Below are positions 4,103 through 22,232 of a stretch of 64,000 nt of DNA, in pieces; position 1 is the stretch's first letter; each line of letters begins with the position of its first letter. The position numbers and the translations under genes are program-made. Under the pieces are notes generated by a model. That model worked only from the letters and a program-made list of their open reading frames with translations. It made no database searches and was not told the DNA's origin. The stretch lies in NCBI RefSeq assembly GCF_008000815.1, contig NZ_CP042806.1, positions 2,666,001-2,730,000 of the forward strand, given 5' to 3'. The stretch comes from Terriglobus albidus. Lineage in GTDB: Bacteria; Acidobacteriota; Terriglobia; Terriglobales; Acidobacteriaceae.

Positions 4103-7100
4103 TTAAAACGAAAGCCGGGCCGTGAGTGAGATTGCGCGTGGCCCGGCGTTGTCCTTGCTCTGCATGCTTGTGATCTGGCCGAAGCTTCCGGTTTCGATTC
4201 CGTTTTTAATGGATGAAGTGGCGAGGTCCAGCGATGAGGGGATATCGTAGTTGTGATGGTTGAACAGATTCTGGACCTGTGCTCCCATCTGGAACTTCAC
4301 CCGTTCGGTGAAAACAAGACTCTTCATCAGCGATGTGGAGAAGGTATTCGTTCCTGGACCTACGACGCTGCCTACGCTGGCCGTTCCCTGGCGGCCGATA
4401 TTGGCGGCCGGGTTAGCAAACGCGGTTGCGGTGAGGAAGTTGCGAATCCCTTTGCCGGAAGTATAGGGAGAGACTCCCACCACTGCATCCGGACGCGAGT
4501 AGGTGGCGAAGCCCTTCGAGATCATGCCGGTCCCCGTGGGGTCAACCGACGAGGTGATTGGGGTTAGGAAAGCGCCGCTTTGCTGCAAATAGTAGCCAGC
4601 AAGCTGCCAGTCATTGACCAGCGAGTTAAGCAGATAGCCGACGTTGGAGAGATATGACTTGTTGTGGCCGAAAGGGAGCTCATAGAGGAACGATCCCAGG
4701 AAGCGGTGACGGCGGGTGTAGATCACGTTGCCGTAATCGACACCCGGGTGGTAGATATCGCTGGGGATTCCGCCAATCTCGCTGGCATTGGAGGTAGGGT
4801 TGCTTCCACCTTCTTCAGAGAGATTGCGGGCGAAGGTGTAGCTCGACTGGAATTGGAGCCCATGCGACATGCGGTGGGTCCCTTCGATGGTGACCGCGTT
4901 GTAGTTGCTCGACGCGAGGTTGCGCACCTGGTACATGGAGTTCATCGTGGGGAAGGGGCGCTGGGCGGTATTGGGTGTTCCAGTGCCATAGGGCAACTGG
5001 TTGGCGTCGCCTTCCATGCCGAGGTTCTGGCCATGGCTTCCGGCGTAGGAGACACGCATTCCGGTGCTGAAGCCAAGGTCCTGTTCCACCGTAAGGTTCC
5101 ACTGCTGGACGGTCGGATCTTTGTAGTTCGGTGTAATGGCGTAGTTGAAGTCGAGGCTCCCGGAGGAGGTAGCGTTGGGTGTGCCGAAGGGGTTCGGGAA
5201 GGAGAGCGTCGGTTTGCCGCCGGAATAAGCATTCGTATACGAGTTGACGGCGCTCGCAGAGACCGCCCATCCGCCCACGACGTTGCCTCCGAGGGCGCCG
5301 GCGATGAATCGCCCGAAGCCACCGCGGATCACTGTCTTATCGTTGTGCAGCGGACGCCATGCGAAGCCGAAGCGGGGTGCGAAGTCATCTTTGGCAACTG
5401 AGACCAGAGCCGATGAGATGCCGGCCTGGGCCGCGGTGAGAATCGGCATCGGAGCAATGCCGTTGCGGAAGCTCGCCAGTACATTGTTGTTGATTGCGTA
5501 GGCCGTAGGAACGACGACTACTCCGCGAACATTCGTGCCGTTGACGTTGGTGTAGGAGTCCGGCAGGAATTGCGCACTGTTCTCGTACTTATCGCGCAGC
5601 ATCGGGTGGTATTCGTAGCGGAGGCCGAAGTTGAGCGTCAGTGTGGACGTGATCTTCCAGTCATCCTGCACATACATGGCATACGCATTGCCGCGGCCAT
5701 TCATGTCCGGTGCAAGAACATCGGCCAGGTTCGTCGAGTCAGGGATGCCCAGCAGGAACGACGCCATCGGGACTGCGATGGTCTTGCCCACGGCGCTGCT
5801 TCCGTTGAACGTATAGCGGCCCAGGCGCGTGCTGCCGAAGACGTTGCTGGAGTAGGCATACATGCGCCGCCAGTCGCCGCCCATCTTGACGGTGTGTGCT
5901 TTTCTGGACCAGGTCAGGTTGTCGATGATCTGGTAGGTATTACTGCTGCCCTTGGAAGATCCCGTACCGCCAGCAGCGGTGAAGCCAGTGATACGAACGT
6001 TCGGAGAGGCGGCAGTCGAGGCGGAGATCAGGTTGGGGATGCCCGTAATGCCAAGCTTGGAGAAGTTGGTCGAGTTATCGCTGAAGGTCGTCTCGGTAAT
6101 GAATTTGCTCAAACCCCCGCGGAGCTCGTTGAGCAGGGTCGGCTTGATGGCGTAGTTGTAGGCGACGGCGAGGCTGGTGTCTTTTTCGGGTCTGTTGAAG
6201 GTTCCAATCAGCGCGGAGCCGCCTGCGGTCGCGCTGCTGCTCGGTGGGGTAGTCACACTCCGCTGCTTGTAGCTGTAGCGGGCATAGATGTTCTGCTTCG
6301 TAGTGATGGTGCGGTCGATGCGGGCATCCCCCTGGTCAGAGGAGATGGGGGTTCGGAAGTTCTGCTGGTAGTTGTTGGTGATTGCGGTAGATGCTCCGGT
6401 ATTAGGGAGAGGGTAGTAGGCATTCAGGAGATTGCGGGAGACGGCACTGATGTCGCCGCTGGGAATTTGGTTGCCGGCGTAAGGAACACCGGAGGCGTTC
6501 TTTATCTGTGTCGAGTATGCCGAGAGATCTCCGTTGCGCATCGCCTGCGTGGGAACGCTTTGAATGACATTGGTCTGTTGCGGTAGACGAAGCCCCTCAT
6601 AGCTGAGGAAGTAAAAGGTTTTGTCGCGACCGTTATAGAGATGCGGAATGATGACCGGGCCTCCGTAAAAAAGGCCGAAGTCATTCATCACCAATTTTGG
6701 CTTGCGGGTGGCGAAGGGGTCCTTCGAGTTGAAGCCCGCGGTCTCGTAGTTGTCGAAGGCGCCGCCGTGCGCCTGATTCGTTCCACCGCGCGAGACAGTG
6801 GTGATGTCGCTGATGCCGCCGAACTCTGCGGCATTGGCATTTTGGCTGATGCGGATCTCTTCGATGGTGTTGAACGAAGGGAAGAGCTCCGATGCCGGAA
6901 TGCTGGAGCGCACATTCATCGTGCTGATTCCGTCGACGGTGACGGAAAGCAGGCTGGGCTTCGCGCCGGCGACCGAGATGTTGCCGGAGGAGTCAGTCTG
7001 CACGCCCGCCTGGGATGTAAGGGTTGAATAAGGGCTGGTCGATCCGCCTGCCCGTGAGCTTACCGCCAGCGGAAGCGTTGTCAGTTCGATGCCGGTACGG

Positions 7101-7552
7101 GTCTCAGTCAGATTGGAGGTGTCTGTGTTGATGACGGCTGCGGCCGCCTCCACGGAGACAGATTGTGCTTCGGAGCCGACCTGCAGTGTGCTGTCGAGGC
7201 GCTGGGTTTCGCGTGCCTGCAGCGTCAGGCTGGTCAGCACCAGCGTTTGGAAGCCTGGGAAGGTCACGGTGACCTTGTAGCTCCCCGGCTCGATATTCAG
7301 GAAGCCGAACTGGCCGTCGGGCCCTGTAGTCGTGACTCTCTTGAGGTTTGTGCCTACACCTTCCAGAGTGACGGAGGCCCCGGCGATCACCGCGCCTTGC
7401 GGGTCTTTGGCCGTTCCGACAAATGCGCCAAATGTAGACTGCGCCTGCAGGCGCCCGGTGAATACGCCGATGCTCAAAAGGCAGAGCAGCGTCGAGATAC
7501 ACGCCGCAATGCGGAACATCCGTTTGCACGGTGTAGAGAGAAGACTGTGCAT
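4103..7552 (-). CDS. Oar-like TonB-dependent outer-membrane receptor with carboxypeptidase-regulatory domain
   Basis: Outer-membrane beta-barrel of about 1,149 residues. I choose the ATG at 7552, not the upstream in-frame starts, because AAGGGG lies just ahead of it and it gives a proper signal peptide (MHSLLSTPCKRMFRIAACIS followed by a hydrophobic stretch). The mature N-terminus is a carboxypeptidase-regulatory-like Ig fold (DPQGAVIAGASVTLEGVG through EPGSYKVTVTFPGFQT). It is followed by a plug region containing GGISDITTVSRGGTN and a long barrel ending in the aromatic LTARLSF. This architecture is greatly expanded in Terriglobia, where it is thought to take up oligosaccharides, peptides or siderophores. 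The substrate cannot be told from sequence. It converges on the peptidase operon and diverges from the QHNDH cluster. Confidence 0.9.
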   Translation of the reverse strand: MHSLLSTPCKRMFRIAACISTLLCLLSIGVFTGRLQAQSTFGAFVGTAKDPQGAVIAGASVTLEGVGTNLKRVTTTGPDGQFGFLNIEPGSYKVTVTFPGFQTLVLTSLTLQARETQRLDSTLQVGSEAQSVSVEAAAAVINTDTSNLTETRTGIELTTLPLAVSSRAGGSTSPYSTLTSQAGVQTDSSGNISVAGAKPSLLSVTVDGISTMNVRSSIPASELFPSFNTIEEIRISQNANAAEFGGISDITTVSRGGTNQAHGGAFDNYETAGFNSKDPFATRKPKLVMNDFGLFYGGPVIIPHLYNGRDKTFYFLSYEGLRLPQQTNVIQSVPTQAMRNGDLSAYSTQIKNASGVPYAGNQIPSGDISAVSRNLLNAYYPLPNTGASTAITNNYQQNFRTPISSDQGDARIDRTITTKQNIYARYSYKQRSVTTPPSSSATAGGSALIGTFNRPEKDTSLAVAYNYAIKPTLLNELRGGLSKFITETTFSDNSTNFSKLGITGIPNLISASTAASPNVRITGFTAAGGTGSSKGSSNTYQIIDNLTWSRKAHTVKMGGDWRRMYAYSSNVFGSTRLGRYTFNGSSAVGKTIAVPMASFLLGIPDSTNLADVLAPDMNGRGNAYAMYVQDDWKITSTLTLNFGLRYEYHPMLRDKYENSAQFLPDSYTNVNGTNVRGVVVVPTAYAINNNVLASFRNGIAPMPILTAAQAGISSALVSVAKDDFAPRFGFAWRPLHNDKTVIRGGFGRFIAGALGGNVVGGWAVSASAVNSYTNAYSGGKPTLSFPNPFGTPNATSSGSLDFNYAITPNYKDPTVQQWNLTVEQDLGFSTGMRVSYAGSHGQNLGMEGDANQLPYGTGTPNTAQRPFPTMNSMYQVRNLASSNYNAVTIEGTHRMSHGLQFQSSYTFARNLSEEGGSNPTSNASEIGGIPSDIYHPGVDYGNVIYTRRHRFLGSFLYELPFGHNKSYLSNVGYLLNSLVNDWQLAGYYLQQSGAFLTPITSSVDPTGTGMISKGFATYSRPDAVVGVSPYTSGKGIRNFLTATAFANPAANIGRQGTASVGSVVGPGTNTFSTSLMKSLVFTERVKFQMGAQVQNLFNHHNYDIPSSLDLATSSIKNGIETGSFGQITSMQSKDNAGPRAISLTARLSF

Positions 7553-8047
7553 GCCTAACCCCTTCATAGGTCGAAAGATGTACTGCGATCGTGAAAGCTG
7601 ACGACGGAACACGCCTAACCAGACAGAACTGCATAGCCGCGACATACTCTGGCGAGTCTGCGTAGAAGCGCACACCGGTGCATATCACCAAAGTCCTTTG
7701 GATGGACGGTGCGCAAAAAGACCAGAAGCTGCTTCTTGTGAGTTGAACCGTATACCAGATGCCCCGAAACGCAAAAGCACAAATTCTTTATGAGGGATAG
7801 AAGCTGAAGTTATCGCCGCGGCAGATTGGCGTGCTTCATAGCTTTGTCTTATCGGATGAAAAGAAATAATTATTTGCTTGCAGGCGGACTCCCGTCCTAG
7901 ATTGCAGTCAGTTCCGTTGACCGGTTCCATTCCTTTTCCTCCTCTGCTTCAGCCACTGTGCTGGGAGCGAAGTGCCTGTACGCAACCGATGTCCGACGAC
8001 AGCGGTTTTCACGAATCGAAACAAGCAGCTAAGGATAAGCATCTGGC
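7553..8047. other. Divergent intergenic region upstream of the receptor and qhpA
   Basis: About 495 bases without a supported gene; both flanking genes are transcribed away from it, so it must hold their promoters. The central part around 7,860-7,880 is A+T-rich and contains a perfect 12-base palindrome, AAATAATTATTT (7864-7875), a possible operator or promoter element. No -35/-10 pair is clear enough to call. AAGGA lies about 12 bases ahead of the qhpA ATG. Confidence 0.5.
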
Positions 8048-9838
8048 ATGACGAACATCAGAAAGCGCACTGCTGGCCATACGGTCTTGATGCTTATGGC
8101 AGCGTTGACCTTCCTTTGCAGTGTGTCCCTCTCGAACGCACAGCAACCTTCAAATGGGGCAGCGAAGCCCACCACAACACCCGCCGATGAAGGCTTGCCG
8201 GTCAAGGACCCGCTGGTGCAGCAGAAGTGCGGCGCGTGCCATCAGGCGGATGTCAAGGGAAACCTGAGCCGCATCTCCTATGTGCGTACAACGCCTGAGG
8301 GATGGGAAGAGGCCATCAAGCGGATGATCCGCCTCAATGGCCTGCAGGTATCGCCGGATGAGGCGCGCCACATTCTGCGCTATCTCAGCGACCGGCATGG
8401 TCTGGCGCCGGATGAGGCGAAGAAGACGGAGTACTTCGTCGAGCATCGCATGATCGACGAGACTCCAATTCCGGAGATTGACGGTCCGTGCGGCTCTTGC
8501 CATGCAACGGCAAAGCCGCTCTCATGGCGCCGTACCGGCGACGACTGGAAGCTGCTGAAGAACATGCATATCGCATTCTTCCCCAGCGCGGAGAACACTT
8601 CGTTCTCAGGCAACCAGAACCGTCTGGGCCAGACTCCCGGCGGTCAAGGTGGTGGCGGCAGAGGCGAACAGAATGCGCGCACCGGTCCTGACGGAAAGCC
8701 CATCCGTCCCGTAGACGATGCCATTGCATGGCTGGCGAAGAGCGAGCCGCTGCATACGCCAGAGTGGGCCAATTGGGAGACGATGATCCAGCAGCCGAAG
8801 CTCGAAGGTGTTTGGTTTGTCAGCGGAAAGGCTCCAGGCAAAGGTAGCTTCCATGGCAAGGTGACCATCAAGGCTACGGAGACGCCCGGCAACTTCACGA
8901 CAGAGACTTCGGTCACGTATCTGGACGGAGAGACCTACACCGCTAAAGGGTATTCCATTGTGTACACGGGCTATGCCTGGCGCGGCCGCTCTGAGGCTCA
9001 GTCAAGCGCTGCCGGCGTTGGAGCTCCATCCAAGGTTCGCGAGGTCATGATGTTGTCACGCGACGGATCGAAGCTCGAAGGACGCTGGTTCTGGGGAACC
9101 TACGAAGAGTTCGGCATGGACATCACCATGACCAGAGACGTCGGCGCGCCGGCTCTTCTCGACATCAGCGCTGCCTCGCTCAAGGCCGGTACAAGCGGCG
9201 CGAAGGTCACAATCTACGGGCAGAACCTTCCCACGTCAATTACTCCTGCCGGCATCGATCTTGGATCGGGGATTACTGTCACAGGGGCGGAAGCAAAATC
9301 TGACTCTGTCACGCTGACTGTCAGTATCGCTGCGGACGCTATCCCCGGCAAGCGTGCCGTGACCGTCAATGGCCTGGTCTTGCCCAGCGCGATCGCGGTC
9401 TACGATCACATCGACTTCCTGAAGGTTACTCCCGAGACCTCGCTCTCACGGCTTGGAGATGAGCCGCATGCAAAGGGATATGCGCAGTTCGAAGCCGAGG
9501 CCTACGCCTTCGGACCGGATGGGAAGGCGATGACAGCGGACGATGTCCCGCTAGGTGTCGTGCCTGCAACCTGGAAACTGGAGGAGTTTGTTGCCTCCTA
9601 CGGTGATGACGATGTGGACTTCGTCGGGAAGCTCGATAGCAAGACCGGCTTCTTTACACCGGCGTCGGACGGTCCCAACCCGAAGCGCAGGTCAATGCGA
9701 AACAACTACGGCGATGTCTGGGTGGTTGCCACCTACACGCCTGAAGGTCAATCGAAACCGGTTACAGGGCGTAGCTACATGGTCGTCTCTGTTCCGCAAT
9801 ACATCCAGTACGATCAGCCGGAGGTTGCAGGCAAATGA
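8048..9838 (+). CDS. qhpA: Quinohemoprotein amine dehydrogenase alpha subunit (diheme cytochrome c)
   Basis: Electron-transfer subunit of periplasmic QHNDH, which oxidises primary amines to aldehydes and ammonia and passes electrons from the CTQ cofactor through two c-type haems. A signal peptide spans residues 1-31. Two CxxCH haem sites are visible, CGACH at 61-65 and CGSCH at 148-152, within the diheme domain. Three beta-rich domains follow, matching the family's alpha-II to alpha-IV layout (for example VTIYGQNLPT as an Ig-like strand). At 596 residues it is longer than the roughly 500 typical of the proteobacterial subunit; part of the excess is a glycine-rich loop at about 193-213. It opens a six-gene run (A-D-C-B-F-E) and overlaps qhpD by four bases. 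Confidence 0.93.
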   Translation: MTNIRKRTAGHTVLMLMAALTFLCSVSLSNAQQPSNGAAKPTTTPADEGLPVKDPLVQQKCGACHQADVKGNLSRISYVRTTPEGWEEAIKRMIRLNGLQVSPDEARHILRYLSDRHGLAPDEAKKTEYFVEHRMIDETPIPEIDGPCGSCHATAKPLSWRRTGDDWKLLKNMHIAFFPSAENTSFSGNQNRLGQTPGGQGGGGRGEQNARTGPDGKPIRPVDDAIAWLAKSEPLHTPEWANWETMIQQPKLEGVWFVSGKAPGKGSFHGKVTIKATETPGNFTTETSVTYLDGETYTAKGYSIVYTGYAWRGRSEAQSSAAGVGAPSKVREVMMLSRDGSKLEGRWFWGTYEEFGMDITMTRDVGAPALLDISAASLKAGTSGAKVTIYGQNLPTSITPAGIDLGSGITVTGAEAKSDSVTLTVSIAADAIPGKRAVTVNGLVLPSAIAVYDHIDFLKVTPETSLSRLGDEPHAKGYAQFEAEAYAFGPDGKAMTADDVPLGVVPATWKLEEFVASYGDDDVDFVGKLDSKTGFFTPASDGPNPKRRSMRNNYGDVWVVATYTPEGQSKPVTGRSYMVVSVPQYIQYDQPEVAGK

Positions 9839-11262
9839 ACCTTGCACTCGGAGAGTTTCATCGCTTCCGTGGGAACAGAGAGACGTTCCTTTACATGGTC
9901 AACAGCGGCGGCATCGTCGCTCTGGATGAGGTGTCGGACGTACTGGTCCAAAAACTAGAAGGCCGCACACTGAGCGGCGACGATCTGATTCGAGAGACTG
10001 TCGCCGATGGCTACGCCGCACAGGAGGTCGTGGAGTCGCTACGCGAGCTGTGGCAGCTTGGAGCTGTCTCGGATGGCGCGCCAAAGCCGGTCATCTCGCA
10101 GGCGCTGCCGGATGACTTTCCTTTGCAGAGTATCGTCCTGAACATTACGAACCAGTGCAATCTCTCCTGCTCCTACTGCTATGAGTTTGGTGAGGACAAG
10201 ATCGCGACCCCTGACGGGAAGCCGAAGTTCATGGACTGGCATACCGCGAAGGCGTCTGTCGATTATCTGTTCGAGAGTGCCAGCTCGCGGGATGCGCTGC
10301 ATATCACTTTCTTCGGCGGCGAGACGCTGATGAACTTTCCTCTGCTGCAGAAGGTAGTGGACTATGCCCGCGGCCTGGCAAAGGAGAAAAACGTCAGGAT
10401 CGGCTTCAGTCTGACGACGAATGCAACGCTGCTGACAACGAAGATTATCGAATACCTTGCTGACAACGAGATTGGCGTTACGGTCAGCATCGACGGTACC
10501 AAAGAGATGCAGGACAAGTTCCGTATCTTCTCCAACGGCAAGGGCAGCTATGACGTCATCAAACCGAAGATCAAGGAGCTGATCGCGCGCCATCGCAGCC
10601 GCCCAATCGCTGCCAGGGTCACGCTGACTTCGGGCGCGAGCGATGTATTGAAGATCTACGATCACCTGAAGAACGAGTTCAACTTCCATGAAGTTGCCTT
10701 CGCTCCAGTTACCACCTCCCCAAACCGTCTGTACTCCATCGGAGAACCCGGTATGGATAAGGTGCTGGAACAGTTCAGTGAGCTGGCAAAGGACTACTTG
10801 CAATCTGCGCTTCGGGGAGAGCATCACGGCTTTTCCAATGTGAGCGACACACTCGCGGAGCTGCACCAGGGAGTGAATAAGTCGCTCCCCTGCGGTGCGG
10901 GGTTGGGAATGGTTGGCGTTGGTCCCTCCGGCGACATCGCTCCGTGCCATCGCTTTGTCGACTCTGACGATCACGTCATCGGCCATATCGATACAGGCAT
11001 CGATATGGAGAAGCGGGGTGAGTTTCTAAAGAAGGGTAGGATCGACGGCAAGTACGACTGCCATAGTTGCTGGGCACGGCCGCTGTGTGCGGGAGGCTGC
11101 CATCACGAGGCCTTTGTCCGGTATGGCGATTCCGGTCATGCGAATCTCCACTACTGTGACTGGATTCGCGAATGGACGCACACCTGCCTCAGCGTTTACG
11201 GCGCCATCGCCGAAGAAAACCCAGCATTCCTGGAGCACTTTTCAGAGAGGAAGGCATCATGA
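9835..11262 (+). CDS. qhpD: Radical SAM/SPASM maturase forming Cys-Asp/Glu thioethers in the QHNDH gamma subunit
   Basis: In known QHNDH systems this protein installs the three intra-protein thioether cross-links of the gamma subunit in the cytoplasm. The radical SAM CxxxCxxC cluster is C108, C112 and C115 (CNLSCSYCYE), followed by GGE in FFGGETLMNF at about 160-169. C-terminal auxiliary-cluster cysteines are visible at C353, C371, C409, C412, C418, C422 and C441, consistent with a SPASM domain. The first 80 residues resemble a peptide-recognition domain that would bind the leader. At 475 residues it has family length. It is translationally coupled to qhpA and qhpC by 4-base ATGA overlaps, directly beside its own substrate gene. 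Confidence 0.93.
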   Translation: MNLALGEFHRFRGNRETFLYMVNSGGIVALDEVSDVLVQKLEGRTLSGDDLIRETVADGYAAQEVVESLRELWQLGAVSDGAPKPVISQALPDDFPLQSIVLNITNQCNLSCSYCYEFGEDKIATPDGKPKFMDWHTAKASVDYLFESASSRDALHITFFGGETLMNFPLLQKVVDYARGLAKEKNVRIGFSLTTNATLLTTKIIEYLADNEIGVTVSIDGTKEMQDKFRIFSNGKGSYDVIKPKIKELIARHRSRPIAARVTLTSGASDVLKIYDHLKNEFNFHEVAFAPVTTSPNRLYSIGEPGMDKVLEQFSELAKDYLQSALRGEHHGFSNVSDTLAELHQGVNKSLPCGAGLGMVGVGPSGDIAPCHRFVDSDDHVIGHIDTGIDMEKRGEFLKKGRIDGKYDCHSCWARPLCAGGCHHEAFVRYGDSGHANLHYCDWIREWTHTCLSVYGAIAEENPAFLEHFSERKAS

Positions 11263-11600
11263 AGCATCTGCGGGCGATCAACAGGAAGGCTGCTCGTATT
11301 GCCGAACAAACTTCGGCGGAGCAGAACGACATTGTGGCGATGCAGCAACAGCAGCCGCCGCCGCAGCAACCGCACGTCCCCATGGGATGTTCCATTGTCT
11401 TTTCCCCGGGATGGGAAGTCGACTCGGCCGGTGGTACGGCGGGCCTATGCCAGCCGGTGGAGCGGGACATCTTTGACTGCTACGTCACCTGCTTCTGGCC
11501 GGCCCAGGTTCCGGATCACCTGAACAACTATCCGGACTGGACCACCAAGTGCGCTGTCGCTACGAAGGACTGGCGCAACATCGACATCGTCTTTCCCTAA
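11259..11600 (+). CDS. qhpC: QHNDH gamma subunit, CTQ cofactor precursor
   Basis: This 113-residue precursor becomes the catalytic subunit. The ATG at 11259 overlaps the qhpD stop (ATGA). All cross-link residues known from the Paracoccus enzyme are present with identical spacing: C44/E53, C64/D70 and C78/D86 for the thioethers, and C74/W80 for CTQ (mature numbering C7-E16, C27-D33, C41-D49, C37-W43). The hallmark segments GWEVD, LCQP and CFWPAQVPD are intact; the residue before the CTQ Trp is Phe, where I recall Trp in proteobacterial homologues. Residues 1 to about 37 are the leader removed by QhpE and lack a Sec signal, as expected for export by QhpF. The leader carries an unusual Q/P-rich stretch at residues 29-38. 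Confidence 0.95.
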   Translation: MKHLRAINRKAARIAEQTSAEQNDIVAMQQQQPPPQQPHVPMGCSIVFSPGWEVDSAGGTAGLCQPVERDIFDCYVTCFWPAQVPDHLNNYPDWTTKCAVATKDWRNIDIVFP

Positions 11601-11618
11601 TCTCGAACGAGGATCTGA

Positions 11619-12737
11619 ATGCGAGCGATCTCCGCACTTCTCACGTTGGTATGTCTTACCGGCTCACTCTTTGCAGCTCCTGCCAAGGCTGTGAAGCCGG
11701 CCACGCCTGAGCTGATGTATCTGGGGGTATGGCCACATACCATTCTTGTCATCGACGCCAACCAGGAAAAGATCGTCGACAAGATCGATCTTCCCACTGA
11801 CATCGCCCGCACGCTGCTGCTCTCACCCGATTGCAAGAAGATCATCGCGTCGACACTGCGCGATAACTCGATTCTCGTGATCGATCTGGCGAGCAAGCAG
11901 ATTCTGAATCGGTTTTCGCTCGATAGCGGCGGAATCTTTACCAGGTTGAGCGGCCTTACCATTGACCCGGGCGGCAAGCTGCTCTATGCGGTCGGTACGG
12001 ATATCACGAAAAAGACCGATCGCTTTGAGGTCGGCGAACCGAAGCTGGTGGTCATCGACCTCGATGCGAAGAAGATCACTCGCTCGGCGGAGTTTGGCAA
12101 AGAGGATGCGCTTACCTCTCCGCGCACGAACATGAAGGTCTCGCCGGACGGTAAGTTTCTTTATATGTTTCGTCAGTCGATCTTCATCTATGACACCTCC
12201 ACGCTGAAGATGGTCAAGAAGATCGAACTGAGCAAGGCCGAAGCGCCGGAGACATCCAGCCTGTCGCTTTCTCCGGTTGAGGATCCCAATGCGCCTGAGG
12301 GGAAGGTCGTAGGCATCTTCAATTCGTCGGACCCATATGTCCATCAACGCATCTTCGGTATCGCGGAGATCGATCTGGCGACACAGAACTATGAGATGAC
12401 TCCTATCGGTCCTTCGGCCACAAGTATTCAGCCGATGCTGATGAGCCCTGACCGGAAGTACGGTTATACCGTGGCGGTGAATGGAACGCATGGTAACCGC
12501 GTTACCGAGTTCTGGGTCTTCGACCTGAAGACCAAGAAGATCATCAGCAAGAAAGAGTTCATCGGTCGAACCCGGCTCAATTTCGGAATTACTGCGGACG
12601 GAAACAAGCTGCTGATCTATAACGCCGGTTATCAGGTAGAGGTGTATGACGCAAAAACACTCGACCTGCGAAGCACGATTGACCTGAACGGCGACACTGT
12701 ATCGAATCTGCTCGTCATGCCTATGATGCACCACTAA
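11619..12737 (+). CDS. qhpB: QHNDH beta subunit (seven-bladed YVTN-like beta-propeller)
   Basis: Structural subunit of 372 residues that packs against the alpha and gamma subunits around the active site. A signal peptide covers residues 1 to about 22 (MRAISALLTLVCLTGSLFAAPA). The body consists of repeated propeller blades with YVTN-like signatures, for example VIDANQEKIVDKIDLP, VIDLASKQILNRFSL and VIDLDAKKITRSAEF, plus SPDGKFLYMF. Length fits the family. It lies 18 bases after qhpC. Unlike qhpC it has a normal Sec signal, so the two subunits would reach the periplasm by different routes. Confidence 0.92.
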   Translation: MRAISALLTLVCLTGSLFAAPAKAVKPATPELMYLGVWPHTILVIDANQEKIVDKIDLPTDIARTLLLSPDCKKIIASTLRDNSILVIDLASKQILNRFSLDSGGIFTRLSGLTIDPGGKLLYAVGTDITKKTDRFEVGEPKLVVIDLDAKKITRSAEFGKEDALTSPRTNMKVSPDGKFLYMFRQSIFIYDTSTLKMVKKIELSKAEAPETSSLSLSPVEDPNAPEGKVVGIFNSSDPYVHQRIFGIAEIDLATQNYEMTPIGPSATSIQPMLMSPDRKYGYTVAVNGTHGNRVTEFWVFDLKTKKIISKKEFIGRTRLNFGITADGNKLLIYNAGYQVEVYDAKTLDLRSTIDLNGDTVSNLLVMPMMHH

Positions 12738-12756
12738 ACATTGGGAGTTGGCCGCA

Positions 12757-14544
12757 ATGGACCGAAGTACGCTGCCCGCAGGCAAGCTCTTTGTGCAGTA
12801 CGGACGCGCGCTGCGGTATGTGCGGCCCTACCTGGGTGGATTGCTCGGTTTTATCGGGCTGGGGCTGCTGTCAACCGCTCTTGGACTGGCACAGCCCTTC
12901 ATGTCTCGCTACCTGGTCGACAAGGCTCTGCTGGGGCGTGATCTTCGGGCGCTACTTGTGATTGCCGCGGCTATGATCGGTGCGGCCGTGGTGAGCTCTA
13001 CCATCTCATTTGTCTCGAGCTATCTCTACCTCCGGCTTTCGACACGGAGTCTCTTCGATATGCGGATGGATCTCTATCGCCATCTGCAGAGCCTTTCGCC
13101 GCGGTTCTTCTCTGGACGCAAGCTGGGTGACCTGGTCTCGCGGATCAATAACGATATCGGTGAAGTGCAGCGGGTCGCGTCGGATGCCTGCCTGTCGCTG
13201 CTTTCGAATGTCATCTTCCTGATCGGAAGTCTTGCCATGATGCTATGGCTGAGCTGGCAGCTTACGGTGGTGAGCGTTGTTCTGTTGCCGATCGCGATCA
13301 TTGCCTTGCGCGCCTACCAGGGCCGCCTGGTGCTGCAGAGTCGTGAGATCCGTGAGAAGAGCTCTGATCTGGGCAGCTTTCTGATTGAGTCGCTGTTGAG
13401 TCTGCGCTTGACCGTTGCGGTTACGGCGGAAGAACGGGAGGCCGCGAAGTTCCGGCGCTTGAACGACGGCTTCATACAGGCGCTGTTGAAGAGCCAGGTG
13501 ACCTCTTTCCTGGCAGGCACGGTCCCGTCTCTGATCCTTACGGTGTCAACATCCGTGATGTTCCTTTATGGAGGATGGTTTGTCTTCCAGGGCCGATTGA
13601 CCCTTGGAAGCCTGCTGGCGTTCATCGCATATCAAGCGAAGCTGATGGCGCCGGTTCAGAACCTGCTTACGCTCCATACAAATCTGCTGACCGGCGGCGT
13701 GGCCTTGGAGCGGGTCTTTGAGCTTCTCGATGTACCGGCAGATGTGGCGGATTCGGAGCTGCCCGTGGCGCTCCCAAAGAGCCTGGGTACCGTCAGGTTC
13801 GAAGCGGTCAGCTTTTCCTACAAGGACGCGGAGGTGGCGTTAGACAATCTCTCTTTCACGCTGCCGAAAGGGTCTCTCACTGTACTAGTGGGGAAGAGCG
13901 GTTCCGGCAAGTCGACGATGGCGGATCTCCTGCTGCGACTACACGATCCTCAATCCGGAGCGATTACCGTCGATGGCGTAGACCTGCGATCCATTCGCCT
14001 GAAAGAGCTGCGGGAGCGCATTGCGATCGTGGAGCAGACACCTTTTCTGCTCCATGCCTCGTTGCGGGAGAACATTGCGTACGGGCGGCCTGAGGCGGGT
14101 TTCGACCGCATTCGGGAGTGCGCGCGTGCGGCACAGATCGATGACTTCATCATGGGTCTGCCGGAAGGGTACGAGACGCTGGTGGGCGAACGTGGCGCTA
14201 CGTTGTCCGCCGGTGAACGGCAGCGAGTCGCCATCGCTCGAGCGCTGCTGCGAGATCCGGAGCTGTTGATTCTGGATGAACCGACAGCCTCACTCGATCC
14301 GCTTTCAGAGGCGCTGGTGACCACGGCCTTGGCAGAGGTTGCGAAGGGGAGAACGACACTTCTGATCACACACCGTCAGGCGCTGATCGAACAGGCGTAC
14401 CAGGTCATCGTGGTGCAGGGCGGCAGGATCGTCGAGTGTGGCACGCCCGAGGGCCTGATGCAAGACGGCGGCTATCTGGCCGCACATCGAAAGGGCTACA
14501 TCGATCTATCGGGTGTTTCTGTCGATGAGGCGGTGCTGGTATGA
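12757..14544 (+). CDS. qhpF: ABC transporter (fused permease-ATPase) exporting the QHNDH gamma subunit
   Basis: Half-transporter of about 595 residues with six predicted membrane helices in roughly the first 300 residues and a C-terminal ATPase. Walker A is GKSGSGKST near residue 383, the signature LSAGERQR near 483, Walker B ELLILDEP near 502, and the switch His is in LLITHRQA. The ATG at 12757 is preferred to the TTG at 12748 because GGGAG lies nine bases ahead of it. In characterised systems QhpF is needed to move the cross-linked gamma subunit to the periplasm. On its own it would only be called a lipid A or peptide exporter; the assignment rests on its position between qhpB and qhpE. Confidence 0.88.
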   Translation: MDRSTLPAGKLFVQYGRALRYVRPYLGGLLGFIGLGLLSTALGLAQPFMSRYLVDKALLGRDLRALLVIAAAMIGAAVVSSTISFVSSYLYLRLSTRSLFDMRMDLYRHLQSLSPRFFSGRKLGDLVSRINNDIGEVQRVASDACLSLLSNVIFLIGSLAMMLWLSWQLTVVSVVLLPIAIIALRAYQGRLVLQSREIREKSSDLGSFLIESLLSLRLTVAVTAEEREAAKFRRLNDGFIQALLKSQVTSFLAGTVPSLILTVSTSVMFLYGGWFVFQGRLTLGSLLAFIAYQAKLMAPVQNLLTLHTNLLTGGVALERVFELLDVPADVADSELPVALPKSLGTVRFEAVSFSYKDAEVALDNLSFTLPKGSLTVLVGKSGSGKSTMADLLLRLHDPQSGAITVDGVDLRSIRLKELRERIAIVEQTPFLLHASLRENIAYGRPEAGFDRIRECARAAQIDDFIMGLPEGYETLVGERGATLSAGERQRVAIARALLRDPELLILDEPTASLDPLSEALVTTALAEVAKGRTTLLITHRQALIEQAYQVIVVQGGRIVECGTPEGLMQDGGYLAAHRKGYIDLSGVSVDEAVLV

Positions 14545-15233
14545 GCCATCTCCGGATTGCTGTTCTCGACAGCGGTATAAATCCGTCTCATCCTCATGTC
14601 GGTGGTCTTACGAACGGTGTATGTCTGACAGGCGACGGCATCAGCGAAGACACAATCGACCGCCTGGGCCACGGGACAGCCGTCGCGGCCCTTATCCATG
14701 CGCTGGCTCCCGGGGCGGCGATTGTGCCGGTGCGCATCTTCGACAGGACTCTCTCAACCAATCTTTCGACGTTACTGCGAGCGCTGCAATGGTGTGTGGC
14801 GAACGGGATCCATGTGATCAATCTGAGTCTTGGAACGACGAACGAGAGCTATCGTGATGCGTTTGCGGAGGTCGTCGCGCGCGTTGCCGACGCCGGAGCT
14901 GTGCTGGTTGCTCCTTATGCGATGGGGGAGAAACTTCTGCTGCCCGGGACTCTTTCGGGGGTGGTGGGAGTTGTTGCCGACAGCACATGCAACGATGCAG
15001 CGTGCACCGTAAAGCCGATGACCTTCAAAAAGGCCTTCGGTGCGCCGCCTTATCCACGCGATATTCCTGGAGTTCCTCGAGCGTTGAACCTCAATGGTGT
15101 CAGCTTTTCCGTGGCGCGCGTCTCGGCTTATATTGCACGCGCGTGGTCCAGCCGAAAGGAAGGCGAGCCATGGGAGCGATTCCTGGAAGCGCGTCTCGAC
15201 CAGGAGCCGATTGAGGTTCTGCTCAGGCAATAA
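14541..15233 (+). CDS. qhpE: Subtilisin-like serine protease removing the gamma-subunit leader
   Basis: Small S8-family protease of 230 residues. The catalytic Asp is in AVLDSGIN (about residues 7-14), the His in GHGTAVAALIH, and the Ser in LNGVSFSVARVSAYI, a variant of the usual NGTSxSxP box. There is no signal peptide, which matches the cytoplasmic leader-cleaving role known for QhpE. ATGA coupling to qhpF and its place at the end of the + strand run support the assignment. Its 3' end overlaps the convergent qhpG by 11 bases. Confidence 0.9.
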   Translation: MSHLRIAVLDSGINPSHPHVGGLTNGVCLTGDGISEDTIDRLGHGTAVAALIHALAPGAAIVPVRIFDRTLSTNLSTLLRALQWCVANGIHVINLSLGTTNESYRDAFAEVVARVADAGAVLVAPYAMGEKLLLPGTLSGVVGVVADSTCNDAACTVKPMTFKKAFGAPPYPRDIPGVPRALNLNGVSFSVARVSAYIARAWSSRKEGEPWERFLEARLDQEPIEVLLRQ

Positions 15234-16227
15234 CCGGCTTGAGGTCGAGATCCTCGAAGCGGAATCCCACCGGAATGTGTATCGTCTCCGTTTGCAGCGC
15301 GGCGATACCGGCTTCAAGATACGTCAACTCAGAGCGCCAGAATGCGGAGTCGTGGTGAACGGCATAGAACGACCGGCAGACCAGCAAATGACGTAGGAAC
15401 GCCTGTTGCAACCGGGCAGAGTAGTGCGTCAGGAGTTCCTGCACTGGTTCGCCGCGGCCGACAGCACGAACTACTGCAGTGGCAAGGTACGCCTCGCGCG
15501 CGGCGTGTCCCACACCTTCGCCACAAAGAGGATCGAATTGCAGCGCCGCACTGCCCGCACGGATCAGCTGCGAAGCGCAGAGTTCGCTTGCCATCGCCGG
15601 TGCGATGCTCACCGGTTCCAGACTGGCGGAGGCATCTTCCACCTGGAGGGCGACAAGACGGCTCTCCCGCAGGACCTCGTCCGGGTGATAGCCACAGCAG
15701 ATAACGACGGCTTCAGTAAAGCTGGTCGGAAGCAGGAAGAGCCAACCCGCGGCGGTGGATTCCGCAAAGCAGCAGTGAGCGTCGGCTGACGTCCGGAGCT
15801 TCGCCCTGTGGAAGATTGCTCCGCGTTTGCCATAACGTATGACCGCCTCGCTGTCCCGCAGTTGTGTCTCGATCACCCAGCCGGAAGATGCTCGGTCCGA
15901 TTCGCTTGTGAGAGTGTCGGGCAGATGGGAACGAAGCTCGTCGGCAAGCAGAATCTCCGGGATGCTAATACCGTGATGCTCAACGGTGACCGGTTCTTCG
16001 GCATCTCCCCAAAGGACGCTTCGACGCTGTATCGGCCACCCGAGTCGCGCAAACCTGTCGGTGCGATGGATCGTACTCAACAGTTGTATCGTCTGCGAAC
16101 TCAATAACACCGATCGCTGGTGTTTGGATCGGCCTGACTGCATGGAAGCTGCAATGCCGCTCTGCGAGAGCAATTGTGCGATGCTGAGCGCAGCAATACC
16201 GTTTCCGGTGATCTGAACCTCGGCCAA
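15223..16227 (-). CDS. qhpG: FAD-dependent monooxygenase hydroxylating the CTQ tryptophan
   Basis: Flavoprotein of 334 residues that in known systems dihydroxylates the precursor Trp of QhpC so that CTQ can form. The N-terminal Rossmann motif is ITGNGIAALSIAQLL; GxGxxA replaces the classical GxGxxG. A GDxxH-type site is not clear; the segment FDPLCGEGVGHAAREAYL may take the second FAD-binding role. The start is TTG at 16227, supported by AGGAGA six bases upstream. It is transcribed towards qhpE, unlike the Paracoccus cluster where the gene is co-directional, and follows the LysR gene after 26 bases. Identification is partly contextual. Confidence 0.82.
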   Translation of the reverse strand: MAEVQITGNGIAALSIAQLLSQSGIAASMQSGRSKHQRSVLLSSQTIQLLSTIHRTDRFARLGWPIQRRSVLWGDAEEPVTVEHHGISIPEILLADELRSHLPDTLTSESDRASSGWVIETQLRDSEAVIRYGKRGAIFHRAKLRTSADAHCCFAESTAAGWLFLLPTSFTEAVVICCGYHPDEVLRESRLVALQVEDASASLEPVSIAPAMASELCASQLIRAGSAALQFDPLCGEGVGHAAREAYLATAVVRAVGRGEPVQELLTHYSARLQQAFLRHLLVCRSFYAVHHDSAFWRSELTYLEAGIAALQTETIHIPVGFRFEDLDLKPVIA

Positions 16228-16253
16228 AGCAATCTCCTGTGTGACGGCGAGTA

Positions 16254-17258
16254 TTATGCGGATTCGGCGATCTTGGGAAACTCTGTTACCACCTGCGGTT
16301 GAAGCGGATGACCGAATGAGAGAGGCGCGGAAGCGTCATTCCAATGACATGAGACCGGGTCGAAGGATTTGATGCAGTCCACGGCGATCTCAGCGAACGC
16401 TCGTGTATTTTTGCGGAGACCGGCACGCTGTGAGACAGCTAGAACAATTCGCGATACCGGAACATCTTCCCGGATTTGGAGACAGACGAGCCTGTTGCTC
16501 GCGTAAGCATGGTCATGCAAAGGCTTAGTGTTCAGGATGGCGTATCCGGCTCCCGCCGCCACCAGGCCGCGCAACAGCTCGAGTGTTGTAACACGATGCC
16601 CAATCTGTGGTTTCCCGGCGTATCCGTCGAAGATCGAGGAGAGGTGGTCCTCATATTCGGGTCGGTCGAGCAGAATGAGAGGCTGATCGGTCAGCTGGTC
16701 CAGGCTTACGAAATTCTTGCGCGCCAACGGATGGGTACGGGCAAGCAAAACATAAGGTTTGAGCGTGACGAGAGGGATGGTCTGGATTGAAGGCTCTGGT
16801 TGCAGGTCGTACATCAGGGCAACATCGGTATCGCCCGATCGGAGCCGCTGGATCAGGCACTCCGTGGTGCCATCGAAGATAGTGGGAATCGTCTCCGGAT
16901 GTGCCCGCTCGAATCGCTCCAGAATGCGCGGAAGAAAACACGGTCCAATCGTGGAAAGACATCCGATGCTGAGTCGCGGCGGCAAGCTTTCGTTCAAGCG
17001 GGCGGCGTGTCGTTGCAGGTTTTCGGCGCTATCCAGTACCTGCCGAGCCTCTGCAATAAAATCGCGGCCGGCGGAGGTTAGCGTGACACCGCGGGCTCGA
17101 TGCCTTACGAAGCATTGCATCCCAAAGATCTGCTCGAGGTGAAGAATGGCAGCCGAAACTGCCGGTTGAGATACAAACAACGCCCTTGCCGCGGCAGAGA
17201 CACTTCCGTGATCGGCTACTGCAATCAGGTATTTCAGTTGCTGAAGGGTATAGTTCAC
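16254..17258 (-). CDS. LysR-family transcriptional regulator next to the QHNDH genes
   Basis: A 334-residue LysR regulator. The N-terminal winged helix-turn-helix is plain: LQQLKYLIAVADHGSVSAAARALFVSQPAVSAAI at about 6-39, then a linker helix and an effector-binding domain from about residue 95. The start is GTG at 17258 with GGGAG eight bases ahead. It lies upstream of qhpG on the same strand, so the two are probably co-transcribed. The Paracoccus cluster uses an AraC-type activator (QhpR) in this role; I see no AraC gene here. LysR may respond to amines and control qhpA-E, but that is inference. Confidence 0.9.
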   Translation of the reverse strand: MNYTLQQLKYLIAVADHGSVSAAARALFVSQPAVSAAILHLEQIFGMQCFVRHRARGVTLTSAGRDFIAEARQVLDSAENLQRHAARLNESLPPRLSIGCLSTIGPCFLPRILERFERAHPETIPTIFDGTTECLIQRLRSGDTDVALMYDLQPEPSIQTIPLVTLKPYVLLARTHPLARKNFVSLDQLTDQPLILLDRPEYEDHLSSIFDGYAGKPQIGHRVTTLELLRGLVAAGAGYAILNTKPLHDHAYASNRLVCLQIREDVPVSRIVLAVSQRAGLRKNTRAFAEIAVDCIKSFDPVSCHWNDASAPLSFGHPLQPQVVTEFPKIAESA

Positions 17259-17599: not shown

Positions 17600-18829
17600 A
17601 TGACAGATCCTCACTCGCTCAACATGGAGTTGCCGCTGGCACTCGGTCGCTCCGTTACGACTGCAGCAGCACCAACAACATCCCGCGAACGGAGCGGGCA
17701 GCAAGCCAAAGCCAGAAATGATTTCCAGCCGGTATGGTGGAATCCCGGCTTTGGCCGCATGCTGCTGATCTGGACATCGATCAGCACGTTGCTCTATGTC
17801 TGGAATTACGTCTTTCCGCCCAAGCCGTACGTGCATGATTTCATCGGCAGACTGCGATATATCTCGTGCTATTTGCCCTGGGCTGTCCTTACACCGCTCA
17901 TCTTCCGCCTCGAGAATAAGTTTCCCCTGGGTGATCGTAAGGGCTTAAAGCATCTGTCGTACCTGGCTATGCTGAGCGTGCCCATCAGTGTGCTCGGGGC
18001 TTCGTCGATGTTGTTTTCGTTTCTGATCGTGTCGTCGGTCCTGCGCGGACACATCGTATACCCACGACGTGCTCTGAGCCTGGTGATAGAGTTCCCAGCC
18101 GCTGAAATTGTCTATTGGTGCAGCGTTGCAACGGGCTACTTTCTTCGTACCCGCTTTCAGCTCCATGAGCAGGAACGCCGTTCGGTCCAACTGGACCTGG
18201 AGAAGTCGCGGCTCGAGGCCAGCCTCAATCAGGCACAGCTTGAGGTACTGCGTTCAAGGTTGAATCCACACTTCCTCTTCAACAGCCTGCAGAACATCTC
18301 AGTGTTGATCGCAGAGAATCCAAAGCTGGCGAACCGCATGGTCGTTCATCTGGGGGATCTGCTTCGTGCCGTCCTTCGCAATGACTCGCAGCCAGAGAAT
18401 TCGCTGCTCGAAGAGATCGAACTTACGCAGATCTATGTGGCGATGGAGCAGATGCGGTTCGGCAGCAGATTGCAGGTGACCTTTGACATCGATGCGGAGT
18501 CACATCAGGCGATGGTGCCGAGCTTTCTGCTACAGCCCATCGTCGAGAACGCCATCCTCCATGGCCTGCGGGAGATTAAGCGGAACGGCGTGATTACCAT
18601 CTCAGGAGAGAGCAAGGGAAGCAGCCTTATCCTCACAGTGACAGATAACGGCGTCGGGCCCAGGGATCCGCACCGGATGAAGATGGGGGTGGGGCTTGGG
18701 TCCACGTGCGAACGTCTCGCCAAGATGTATCCCGAACGGCATTCGTTTTCCATGTGTAAACCTCCGCAGGGCGGCACTGAGGTGCGCATCGCAATCCCAC
18801 TGCATTTTCGGGAGGAGCAGGCAGCATGA
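17600..18829 (+). CDS. LytS/YehU-type membrane sensor histidine kinase
   Basis: Sensor kinase of 409 residues. The N-terminal half holds about four hydrophobic segments (MLLIWTSISTLLYVWNYVF, ISCYLPWAVLTPLIF, LAMLSVPISVLGASSMLF, IVYWCSVATGYFL). A coiled-coil linker (about 185-215) leads into the His_kinase domain typical of LytS, with the phospho-acceptor His in LNPHFLFNSLQ near residue 223. The ATP-binding domain shows VENAILHG and DNGVGP. There is no recognisable ligand-binding sensor domain, so the signal probably acts in or near the membrane. It is coupled to the LytTR regulator by an ATGA overlap. Proximity to the QHNDH genes is suggestive only. Confidence 0.9.
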   Translation: MTDPHSLNMELPLALGRSVTTAAAPTTSRERSGQQAKARNDFQPVWWNPGFGRMLLIWTSISTLLYVWNYVFPPKPYVHDFIGRLRYISCYLPWAVLTPLIFRLENKFPLGDRKGLKHLSYLAMLSVPISVLGASSMLFSFLIVSSVLRGHIVYPRRALSLVIEFPAAEIVYWCSVATGYFLRTRFQLHEQERRSVQLDLEKSRLEASLNQAQLEVLRSRLNPHFLFNSLQNISVLIAENPKLANRMVVHLGDLLRAVLRNDSQPENSLLEEIELTQIYVAMEQMRFGSRLQVTFDIDAESHQAMVPSFLLQPIVENAILHGLREIKRNGVITISGESKGSSLILTVTDNGVGPRDPHRMKMGVGLGSTCERLAKMYPERHSFSMCKPPQGGTEVRIAIPLHFREEQAA

Positions 18830-19599
18830 CCTCTTGTCGAGAAATCATTCGGTTGCTCATTGTGGATGACGAACCACGTATCCGTTCCGGAATTCGTAGG
18901 GACCTGCACGGCTATGGGAAGATCGAGATCGTTGGTGAGGCCGGCTCGGTTGCGGAAGCGGTGGATGCGACGCTGCTCTGCGCCCCGGACCTGGTCCTGC
19001 TCGATGTACAGTTGCCCGATGGCACAGGCTTCGATGTTGTTCGTCACATAGGGTCCCGACAGATGCCTCCGGTCATCTTTGTTACGGCTTTCGATCAGTA
19101 TGCAATTAGAGCGTTCGAGGTGAACGCGATTGATTACGTCCTCAAGCCGTTCGACGAAAGCAGGTTGCGGCAAAGCATCGATAAAGCCATCGACCGGCGG
19201 CTTGAGGCTATGGTGCTGATCAAACGGCTCGAACGCTTGGTGGAGGCACAGCAACAAAATTTGCAGCAGCGCATTGTGGTGAAGCATGACGGAAGGTTCG
19301 AGTTTATTCCGGTGGAATGCATTGATTGGGTGGAATCGGCGAACAACTATATCGTGCTGCATTGCGGAAATCGTACCCATATCCTGCCAGAAACACTAAG
19401 CAGCCTGGAGAGCCGGCTTGACGGGAATCTCTTTGTCAGAACACATCGCGGCCACATCATCAATCTCTCCCGCATGATCGCCGTCAGTTCACTGACAGGC
19501 GGAGGCTATGAAGTCGAATTGCGGAACGGGATACGGCTACCAGTCGGAAGGCAGTACCGTGAGGTGATACATGCACTCATACGTAACCGGCATGCCTGA
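18826..19599 (+). CDS. LytTR-family response regulator
   Basis: A 257-residue partner of the preceding kinase. The receiver domain (about 8-125) has acidic pair D14/D15, phospho-acceptor D60 in LVLLDVQLPDG, the conserved Thr in FVTAFD and K107 in VLKPFD. A helical linker precedes a LytTR DNA-binding domain (about 155-255) with IDWVESANNYIVLH and FVRTHRGHIINL. LytTR regulators bind short direct repeats upstream of their targets, and the kinase-regulator pair may regulate itself. Targets are not evident in this window. Confidence 0.92.
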   Translation: MTSCREIIRLLIVDDEPRIRSGIRRDLHGYGKIEIVGEAGSVAEAVDATLLCAPDLVLLDVQLPDGTGFDVVRHIGSRQMPPVIFVTAFDQYAIRAFEVNAIDYVLKPFDESRLRQSIDKAIDRRLEAMVLIKRLERLVEAQQQNLQQRIVVKHDGRFEFIPVECIDWVESANNYIVLHCGNRTHILPETLSSLESRLDGNLFVRTHRGHIINLSRMIAVSSLTGGGYEVELRNGIRLPVGRQYREVIHALIRNRHA

Positions 19600-21830: not shown

Positions 21831-22232
21831 ATGTCCCAGGAAGAGAAAAGGGCGTTCAGCCGGTCGTTCAAGCTGCGGGCAGTAAAGCGAATGGAGGCTG
21901 GCGAGAGCAGCAGTGCGTTGTCGGTAGAACTGGCAGTGAAGCGAACCCTGCTCTATCGTTGGCGCGATGCTGTTCGGCAGGATGGAGAGAAGGCCTTTCG
22001 AAGGAAGTCTGGCCGCCCATCGAAGACGGAACTGCTGAAGCGTGAGCACGGCGAGGAAGAAGCCAGCGAGTTAGCCCAGGCGCGGCGCAAGATCGCAGAG
22101 TTGGAGCGCAAGATAGGCCAGCAGCAGTTGGATCTGGATTTTTTCAAACAAGCCTTGCGGCACATCGAGGCTCCACGGCAGCGAAACAGCGCGCGTGGCG
22201 CAACAGCATCTTCGCCAGCATCCAGACGATGA
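21831..22232 (+). CDS. IS3-family transposase OrfA (helix-turn-helix subunit)
   Basis: A 133-residue DNA-binding protein that recognises the IS ends. The N-terminal helix-turn-helix is FSRSFKLRAVKRMEAG followed by SALSVELAVKRTLLYRWRD. A leucine-zipper-like coiled coil spans about 80-115 (ARRKIAELERKIGQQQLDL). The ATG has GAGGAG upstream. Its stop overlaps the orfB ATG in the -1 frame. Confidence 0.93.
   Translation: MSQEEKRAFSRSFKLRAVKRMEAGESSSALSVELAVKRTLLYRWRDAVRQDGEKAFRRKSGRPSKTELLKREHGEEEASELAQARRKIAELERKIGQQQLDLDFFKQALRHIEAPRQRNSARGATASSPASRR

Follow-up and report, generated by a model that had tools for sequence, protein, structure and literature searches.

A quinohemoprotein amine dehydrogenase cluster in Terriglobus albidus with a short QhpG-like protein and a linked TonB-dependent receptor

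The stretch of Terriglobus albidus DNA analysed here (64,000 nucleotides, contig NZ_CP042806.1, positions 2,666,001 to 2,730,000; 'the window' in what follows) is part of a genome comprising a single contig of 6.4 Mb, and carries a gene cluster for quinohemoprotein amine dehydrogenase (QHNDH) and its maturation. The existence of this cluster is far beyond chance and the system as a whole is of a known kind; what is new are the step assigned to QhpG, for which the cluster encodes a short QhpG-like protein devoid of the winged-helix domain, and a TonB-dependent receptor encoded next to qhpA.

The plus strand encodes (i) the α-subunit QhpA (8048–9838; 596 residues) with two CxxCH haem motifs and, as judged by eye, a Sec-type signal peptide, (ii) QhpD (9835–11262), the radical S-adenosylmethionine (SAM)/SPASM enzyme that crosslinks QhpC, (iii) the γ-subunit precursor QhpC (11259–11600; 113 residues), in which a leader of ∼40 residues, likewise delimited by eye, precedes the cysteine tryptophylquinone (CTQ) domain, (iv) the β-propeller β-subunit QhpB (11619–12737) with a signal peptide recognised by eye, (v) the ATP-binding cassette exporter QhpF (12757–14544; an in-frame TTG is located at 12748), and (vi) the subtilisin-like leader protease QhpE (14541–15233). 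On the minus strand follow the short QhpG-like protein of 334 residues (15223–16227), the gene of which overlaps tail to tail with qhpE by 11 bp, and, upstream of it on the same strand, a LysR-type regulator (16254–17258; PF00126 and PF03466). None of the seven qhp reading frames is interrupted. The ATGA overlaps at A/D, D/C and F/E reported in an earlier note on this DNA were all found, and the order A-D-C-B-F-E, which that note considered to be proteobacterial, is indeed described for Methyloversatilis (qhpRADCBFE; PMC5023235).

The assignments are based primarily on curated NCBIfam models. QhpA (501.1 bits against TIGR03908; cut-off 274.35), QhpD (601.2 bits against TIGR03906; cut-off 453) and QhpC (136.9 bits against NF037958; cut-off 50) clearly pass, and QhpE just reaches its cut-off (165.8 bits against NF049966; cut-off 165). 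QhpA also contains all four α-subunit Pfam domains (PF09098, PF14930, PF09099, PF09100) and matches chain A of 1JMX with an E-value of 1.2e-72, while the γ domain of QhpC is recognised by Pfam as well. QhpF was assigned from PF00664 and PF00005 and from its homologues in the clusters of relatives. QhpB misses the cut-off of TIGR03907 (76.6 versus 223.2 bits), yet this model is its top NCBIfam match, and the assignment draws also on chain B of 1JJU (E-value 1.8e-6) and on the position in the operon. In QhpC, every crosslink and CTQ cofactor residue is present in register with 1JMX and 1JJU: the pattern C-x8-E ... C-x5-D-x3-C-x3-C-x-W-x5-D is complete and comprises three Cys-Asp/Glu pairs as well as the Cys and Trp of CTQ. 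Coordinates, family scores and QhpC residues thus bear out that a full set of structural and maturation genes is present in an acidobacterium, except that the label 'QhpG' needs to be qualified.

The minus-strand protein had been taken for an ordinary QhpG. This holds inasmuch as QhpG is its best match: NF049967 is the top NCBIfam match, and a Foldseek search with the AlphaFold2 model (pLDDT 93.2, pTM 0.91) ranks the QhpG structure 7CTQ first among 1695 matches at E ≤10 (E-value 1.1e-16; TM-score 0.73 on the query; r.m.s.d. 3.8 Å; 19% identity). It does not hold inasmuch as the score of 66.9 bits misses the cut-off of 240 and places the protein outside the curated family, the winged-helix domain is missing, and key residues are replaced. 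Past position 345 of the 7CTQ chain, only 28–32 residues remain in 21 short sequences, as compared with 83–89 in four canonical QhpG and 109–141 in 23 long acidobacterial ones, and the model of the short protein ends in a β-hairpin. With residues numbered as in PMC7876137 and 7CTQ, and the register of key sites checked by MAFFT and hhalign, four residues of Pseudomonas QhpG turn out to be replaced in all 36 short proteins compared: Glu42 (by Ile, Val or Leu), Arg89 (by Glu, Ala, Gly, Asp, Leu or Pro), Asp260 (by Thr, Ser, Met, Ala or Asn) and Trp183 (invariably by Phe). Arg240 is lost as well, and Arg111 falls into an alignment gap. Glu42, Arg89 and Asp260 are invariant in the four canonical QhpG and in seven LodB/GoxB-like proteins, and are found in 16, 14 and 23, respectively, of the 23 long acidobacterial QhpG. 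On the other hand, Arg70, Trp74, Trp181 and Pro267 are kept in 36/36 short proteins, and Arg314 and Phe322 in 35/36. The residues invariant within the short family are present in the window's copy. For five pairs of short proteins, all alphaproteobacterial, the ratio of nonsynonymous to synonymous substitution rates is 0.14–0.23, and the gene is thus maintained in alphaproteobacteria.

The QhpD cut-off is passed in 27 of the 396 genomes of our sample of the phylum, the window's genome included, and NF049967 was searched in these 27 plus one more (G077). A match of at least 176 bits was obtained in 21 of the 28 genomes, although only three exceed the cut-off of 240; 20 of these 21 matches extend to model position 395 or beyond (the one in G277 to position 361 of 423), and 19 are located on the qhp contig within ∼10 kb. 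Four genomes (that of the window, G000, and G225, G345 and G187) instead encode the short protein, and the canonical model yields no match above 100 bits in them. Three further qhp-bearing genomes (G281, G259 and G377) yielded no QhpG of either kind, canonical or short; a 183-bit match to the QhpG model in G259 is grouped with LodB/GoxB in the tree described below. The qhp clusters of these genomes are L050 (contig C10 of G281), L035 (G259), and L037 and L059 (both G377); in QhpC of L050, a Gly adjoins the CTQ tryptophan.

In total, 51 non-duplicate sequences score at least 300 bits against a profile of the short proteins. Named genomes include Acidobacteriia/Bryobacterales metagenome-assembled genomes (MAGs) as well as Novosphingobium, Sphingobium, Sphingomonas, Acetobacter and Komagataeibacter, so that, as judged from the sequences, the clade spans Terriglobia (here the class of the window plus Acidobacteriia MAGs related to the nearest clusters), Sphingomonadaceae and Acetobacteraceae. 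Exactly one strong match per genome was seen in each of ten such genomes examined, and viral contigs contain no match to the window's protein. All 36 short proteins match NF049967 with E ≤0.001, the best being that of the window (1.6e-18), and all 36 remain below its cut-off; used as an annotation tool, the present QhpG model would overlook the short protein. The acidobacterial clusters with long QhpG, mostly from outside Terriglobia, likewise comprise the A, D, C, B, F and E genes, mostly in the same order, and encode a similar QhpC. They differ in that their QhpG comprises ∼450–520 residues (trimmed frames) and aligns with the canonical model deep into the C-terminal portion of the latter, and in that receptor matches nearby do not exceed 62 bits. 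Phe42 of QhpC, adjacent to Trp43, was considered as a change accompanying the short QhpG and dismissed, since it is also present with long QhpG. In the open-access library searched, we found no paper on a short QhpG, on a link of qhp genes with a receptor, or on QHNDH in Novosphingobium.

In a flavoprotein tree of 74 sequences, built with a quick method and containing 21 of the 51 short proteins chosen by hand, the short proteins form one clade (support 99), and a protein encoded on a Nostoc plasmid (L171) is its sister (support 100) on a long stem. Short proteins, Nostoc protein and canonical QhpG together make up one side of a branch with a support of 48. The approximately unbiased (AU) test rejects a clade of all qhp-linked QhpG that leaves out the Nostoc protein (p 0.001), and rejects neither a grouping of the short and Nostoc proteins with QhpG (p 0.47) nor one with LodB/GoxB (p 0.84); the tree constrained to the LodB/GoxB side is 12.6 log units better than that of the free search. 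Profile comparison with hhalign scores the short family at 99.2 against canonical QhpG, 82.9 against long acidobacterial QhpG and 112.9 against LodB/GoxB, whereas canonical QhpG and LodB/GoxB score 258.7 against each other. To regard the short protein as a plain truncation of QhpG is too simple, because residues of the FAD (flavin adenine dinucleotide) site differ and the Nostoc protein, not encoded in a qhp cluster, is closer.

LodB and GoxB resemble the short family in being devoid of the winged-helix domain, in their length, and in acting on a CTQ precursor; in GoxB, moreover, FAD is loosely bound (PMC7876137). The seven LodB/GoxB-like proteins differ, however, in that they keep the equivalents of Glu42, Arg89 and Asp260 and are devoid of Arg70, and LodB/GoxB serve one large oxidase, whereas the partner of the short QhpG is QhpC. 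The window's protein scores only 27.1 and 21.9 bits against the LodB and GoxB models (cut-off 400), and no LodA/GoxA-type oxidase was found among the ten proteins scanned between 8.0 and 19.6 kb and three further proteins upstream. The Nostoc flavoprotein shares the loss of Glu42 and Arg89 with the short family, but retains Asp260, is devoid of Arg314, and is encoded outside an annotated qhp cluster. It is accompanied on its plasmid, as is a QhpG/LodB-like flavoprotein on a Bradyrhizobium plasmid (L182), by a radical SAM gene (QhpD-like in L182) and ferritin-like proteins, and neither locus has an annotated gene for a γ-subunit; similar radical SAM/flavoprotein pairs were recognised by sequence in L060, L061 and L183. 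The gene groups of L171 and L182 possibly represent an undescribed quinone-cofactor or peptide system.

In a QhpD tree of 68 sequences thinned by hand, the 27 sequences from clusters with short QhpG form one clade (support 100/100), within which 18 alphaproteobacterial sequences are nested among acidobacterial ones, far from Paracoccus. This nesting indicates a transfer between phyla, with QhpD and short QhpG moving together, and the trees are most simply read as a transfer out of Acidobacteria.

The best-supported new part of the system is the receptor. An Oar-like TonB-dependent receptor of 1190 residues (4103–7675, minus strand; PF25183 and PF13620) is divergent from qhpA across 372 bp, and such a receptor (PF25183) is encoded beside qhp in all eight short-QhpG loci of Terriglobia with enough flanking sequence (L065 and L115, on contigs of 6.4 and 6.0 kb, were not counted); it is thus a conserved qhp neighbour in Terriglobia. 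In L126, L032, L050, L063 and L064 the receptor gene immediately precedes qhpA and ends at, or no more than 27 bp from, a likely qhpA start. The window receptor finds the qhp-linked receptor as its top match in 4/4 other qhp-bearing genomes of the class searched, well ahead of the next paralogue (1527 versus 526 bits in G345, 1238 versus 504 in G225, 1036 versus 222 in G187, and 975 versus 259 in G281), although these genomes contain 41, 44, 32 and 7 receptor homologues, respectively; the window's own genome contains 67, the next best scoring 628 bits. Not among the genomes searched is G370, a fifth genome of this class with qhp genes; it encodes a long QhpG, and its contig starts inside qhpA. 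A classical TonB-dependent receptor was found near qhp in 35 of 45 alphaproteobacterial rows (three of the matches being weak) of a list of 56 rows that also includes L079, a second copy of L032. Among 38 other rows a receptor match was found in six, strong only in L050, although this comparison is biased since the queries came from short-QhpG loci and some contigs are short. PMC12124388, which deals with a receptor for pyrroloquinoline quinone, gave no lead. Upstream of the receptor, the window encodes a large M14 zinc carboxypeptidase of 955 residues (1106–3970), which could release amines or peptides and whose tie to qhp is putative.

The arrangement, order and strand of qhp genes are known to vary, the operon being present in >1300 species (PMC7876137). 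Compared with the QHNDH systems of Paracoccus and Pseudomonas (1JJU and 1JMX, with 7CTQ for QhpG), the window shares genes A–F, the QhpC residues and a QhpG-like protein of the same fold, and differs in the linked receptor and in the LysR gene beside the gene for G. The G genes of the Paracoccus, Pseudomonas and Cupriavidus records are not named QhpG there and were assigned by similarity: the protein of Pseudomonas nitroreducens scores 514.8 bits against 7CTQ, and those of two Paracoccus strains and of Cupriavidus are 33, 33 and 54% identical to it. The layouts are Fis-F-G-A-D-C-B-E in P. nitroreducens and Fis-F-E-G-ALDH(-)-A-D-C-B in Cupriavidus, while on the plasmids of Paracoccus pantotrophus and P. 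sanguinis an inverted qhpG stands divergently upstream of A-D-C-B-E-F, along with an AraC gene. The window thus differs from these two plasmids in having B-F-E instead of B-E-F; the inverted qhpG, which had been presented as a departure from Paracoccus, is on the opposite strand there too and is no novelty. Among the short-QhpG loci, the convergent E/G layout is common to the window, L033, L034 and L062, all seven genes are on one strand in L032, G-F-E is separated from A-D-C-B in L064 and L126, and most Novosphingobium and Acetobacter loci exhibit A-D-C-B-G-F-E. In L114, from an acidobacterial MAG, qhpC and qhpB occur as tandem copies (11406–14386; A-D-C-B-C-B-F-E).

Regulators beside qhp vary as well: Paracoccus has an AraC gene, Pseudomonas and Cupriavidus have a sigma-54 regulator of the Fis type, and 23 of 54 short-QhpG loci have a TetR gene. 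Since layouts, strands and regulators thus vary among known loci, the inverted G and another regulator are not remarkable in themselves. The suggestion that the LysR gene marks a different regulatory circuit had to be given up because the linkage is not conserved: no orthologue was found at any other short-QhpG cluster examined, in each of three close qhp carriers the top match shows 29–30% identity and is located elsewhere, and that in G225 (91.1 bits) is away from qhp. Other LysR-family genes (∼50 bits to that of the window) are found ∼6–8 kb from qhp only in L059 and in Cupriavidus (L173). The window's LysR gene is a local neighbour of the cluster, with a putative tie to qhp only. A phmmer search of the window's initial 30 kb with four AraC/helix-turn-helix queries from Paracoccus, Pseudomonas and Cupriavidus detected no AraC-type gene. 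A two-component pair further downstream (17600–19599) was rejected as part of the system, as other short-QhpG loci yield only a 30-bit match in L102. Beyond it are located two frames (21831–23110), the first of which resembles, by eye, an IS3-type transposase.

Besides the core and the receptor, clustering of ten Terriglobia loci revealed only three minor families, plus one frame antisense to the core, that recur in at least three loci. A family of ∼380 residues, encoded near qhpA in four Terriglobia loci (L033 6392–7516, L062 4489–5652, L063 3362–4579, L064 3446–4558), is a candidate haem protein or electron acceptor; its L033 copy exhibits a CxxC motif and has no Pfam match at 1e-5. In L032, G is followed by an aldehyde dehydrogenase gene. 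A family of ∼730 residues, represented in L066 (2551–4758) by a molybdopterin cofactor-binding protein, is encoded near qhp in 10 of 26 clustered alphaproteobacterial loci and could oxidise the aldehyde product. Both are consistent with amine oxidation.

Taken together, we consider the chances somewhat better than even that the cluster is a working QHNDH operon of a distinct lineage, in which Trp43 of QhpC would be oxidised by a remodelled short QhpG and which, in Terriglobia, would be fed by the receptor. By orthology with the studied system, QhpD would crosslink QhpC, QhpE would remove the leader, QhpF would export the product, and the final oxidation would take place on QhpA. The short QhpG would place two oxygens on Trp43: it retains the channel residues facing crosslinked QhpC (Arg70, Trp74, Trp181, Arg314, Phe322) as well as the Pro-loop that covers the flavin ring, and has lost both the winged-helix domain and residues that anchor or cover FAD (Glu42, Arg89, Arg240, Asp260). 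The likeliest consequence is that flavin may be loosely held, or supplied reduced in trans, unlike in P. putida QhpG with its tightly bound cofactor. In Terriglobia, the dedicated receptor would bring to the periplasmic enzyme an amine, probably one that is present in low amounts or exceeds the size limit of porins.

Several observations weigh against this assignment of the Trp43 step. E42A and W183F are among a set of P. putida QhpG mutants reported to lose single-turnover activity almost completely and/or to bind QhpC with lower affinity (PMC7876137). None of the 36 short proteins retains the residue at either position, which casts doubt on catalysis by the known mechanism. Arg47, Arg70 and Arg314 were mutated in the same study (PMC7876137), and position 47 is not Arg in any of the 20 of 21 short sequences shown (Gln in the window). 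Like Arg47, Glu84 is not kept, and Arg307 is found in only 7 of 21 sequences, all of which argues against a retained channel, and in 7CTQ it is the winged-helix domain that forms one wall of the pocket. Conversely, the GxG motif, Ala14 (19/21) and the DP-x-C/G-x-G loop that covers the flavin ring are retained, and the stretch around Arg111 and Arg140 aligns poorly, both of which argue against a loss of the FAD site. No conserved neighbour in the clustered loci was recognised as a flavin reductase or a second oxygenase, and the deeper branching favours neither the QhpG nor the LodB/GoxB side for the short family. Finally, the three qhp genomes in which neither kind of QhpG was recognised suggest that the Trp step may run differently in general.

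It is then tempting to speculate, more tentatively, that the short protein represents a further kind of CTQ maturation beside QhpG, LodB and GoxB, in which tight binding of FAD was given up in favour of another route, be it reduced flavin in trans, another flavin, or a flavin-free process with QhpD or self-processing; it may have arisen with the receptor-fed QHNDH of Terriglobia, the operon core having later moved to Sphingomonadaceae and Acetobacteraceae.

Among the alternatives, the one that survives best, though we regard it as rather unlikely, is that the short QhpG is a pseudo-enzyme which serves as a scaffold for crosslinked QhpC and speeds QhpD, with the oxygenation of Trp43 left to another factor or to self-processing. 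The complete replacement of Glu42 and Trp183 and the loss of Arg89 and Asp260, with QhpC-facing Arg70 (36/36) and Arg314 (35/36) conserved, would fit such a role, as would the genomes that show neither kind of QhpG; P. putida QhpG is described as promoting the crosslinking by QhpD, and the first hydroxylation in LodA, GoxA and methylamine dehydrogenase (MADH) as being thought autocatalytic (PMC7876137). Against it, the GxG motif and the flavin-ring loop are retained, no other oxygenase was recognised nearby, and position 183 tolerates change in a working maturase, since 7/7 LodB/GoxB carry Tyr there. Still less probable, in our view, is an ordinary QhpG that holds FAD firmly and functions like its Pseudomonas counterpart, with the replaced residues compensated and the cut-off of the model too strict: the model matches, the closest solved structure and the genomic place speak for it, but two positions at which mutations cripple the studied enzyme are changed throughout, the winged-helix domain is gone, and canonical QhpG and LodB/GoxB score much higher against each other (258.7) than the short family does against them (99.2 and 112.9). 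That the window's own short QhpG is decaying and the cluster inactive in this strain is very improbable, for although its branch is the longest of its subgroup (1.36 versus 0.40–0.69) and the selection figures come from alphaproteobacterial pairs only, the seven qhp frames are intact, the family-invariant residues are kept, and QhpC is complete.

The short family bears on how tryptophylquinone is made and from where QhpG receives its electrons, the electron donor of QhpG being stated as not known in PMC7876137. With its substrate-facing residues kept and the crippling positions changed, it provides a natural test of the roles of the flavin pocket, the winged-helix domain, Glu42 and Trp183. The link with the receptor, in turn, suggests that some QHNDH may act on actively imported amines, beyond the small diffusible ones.

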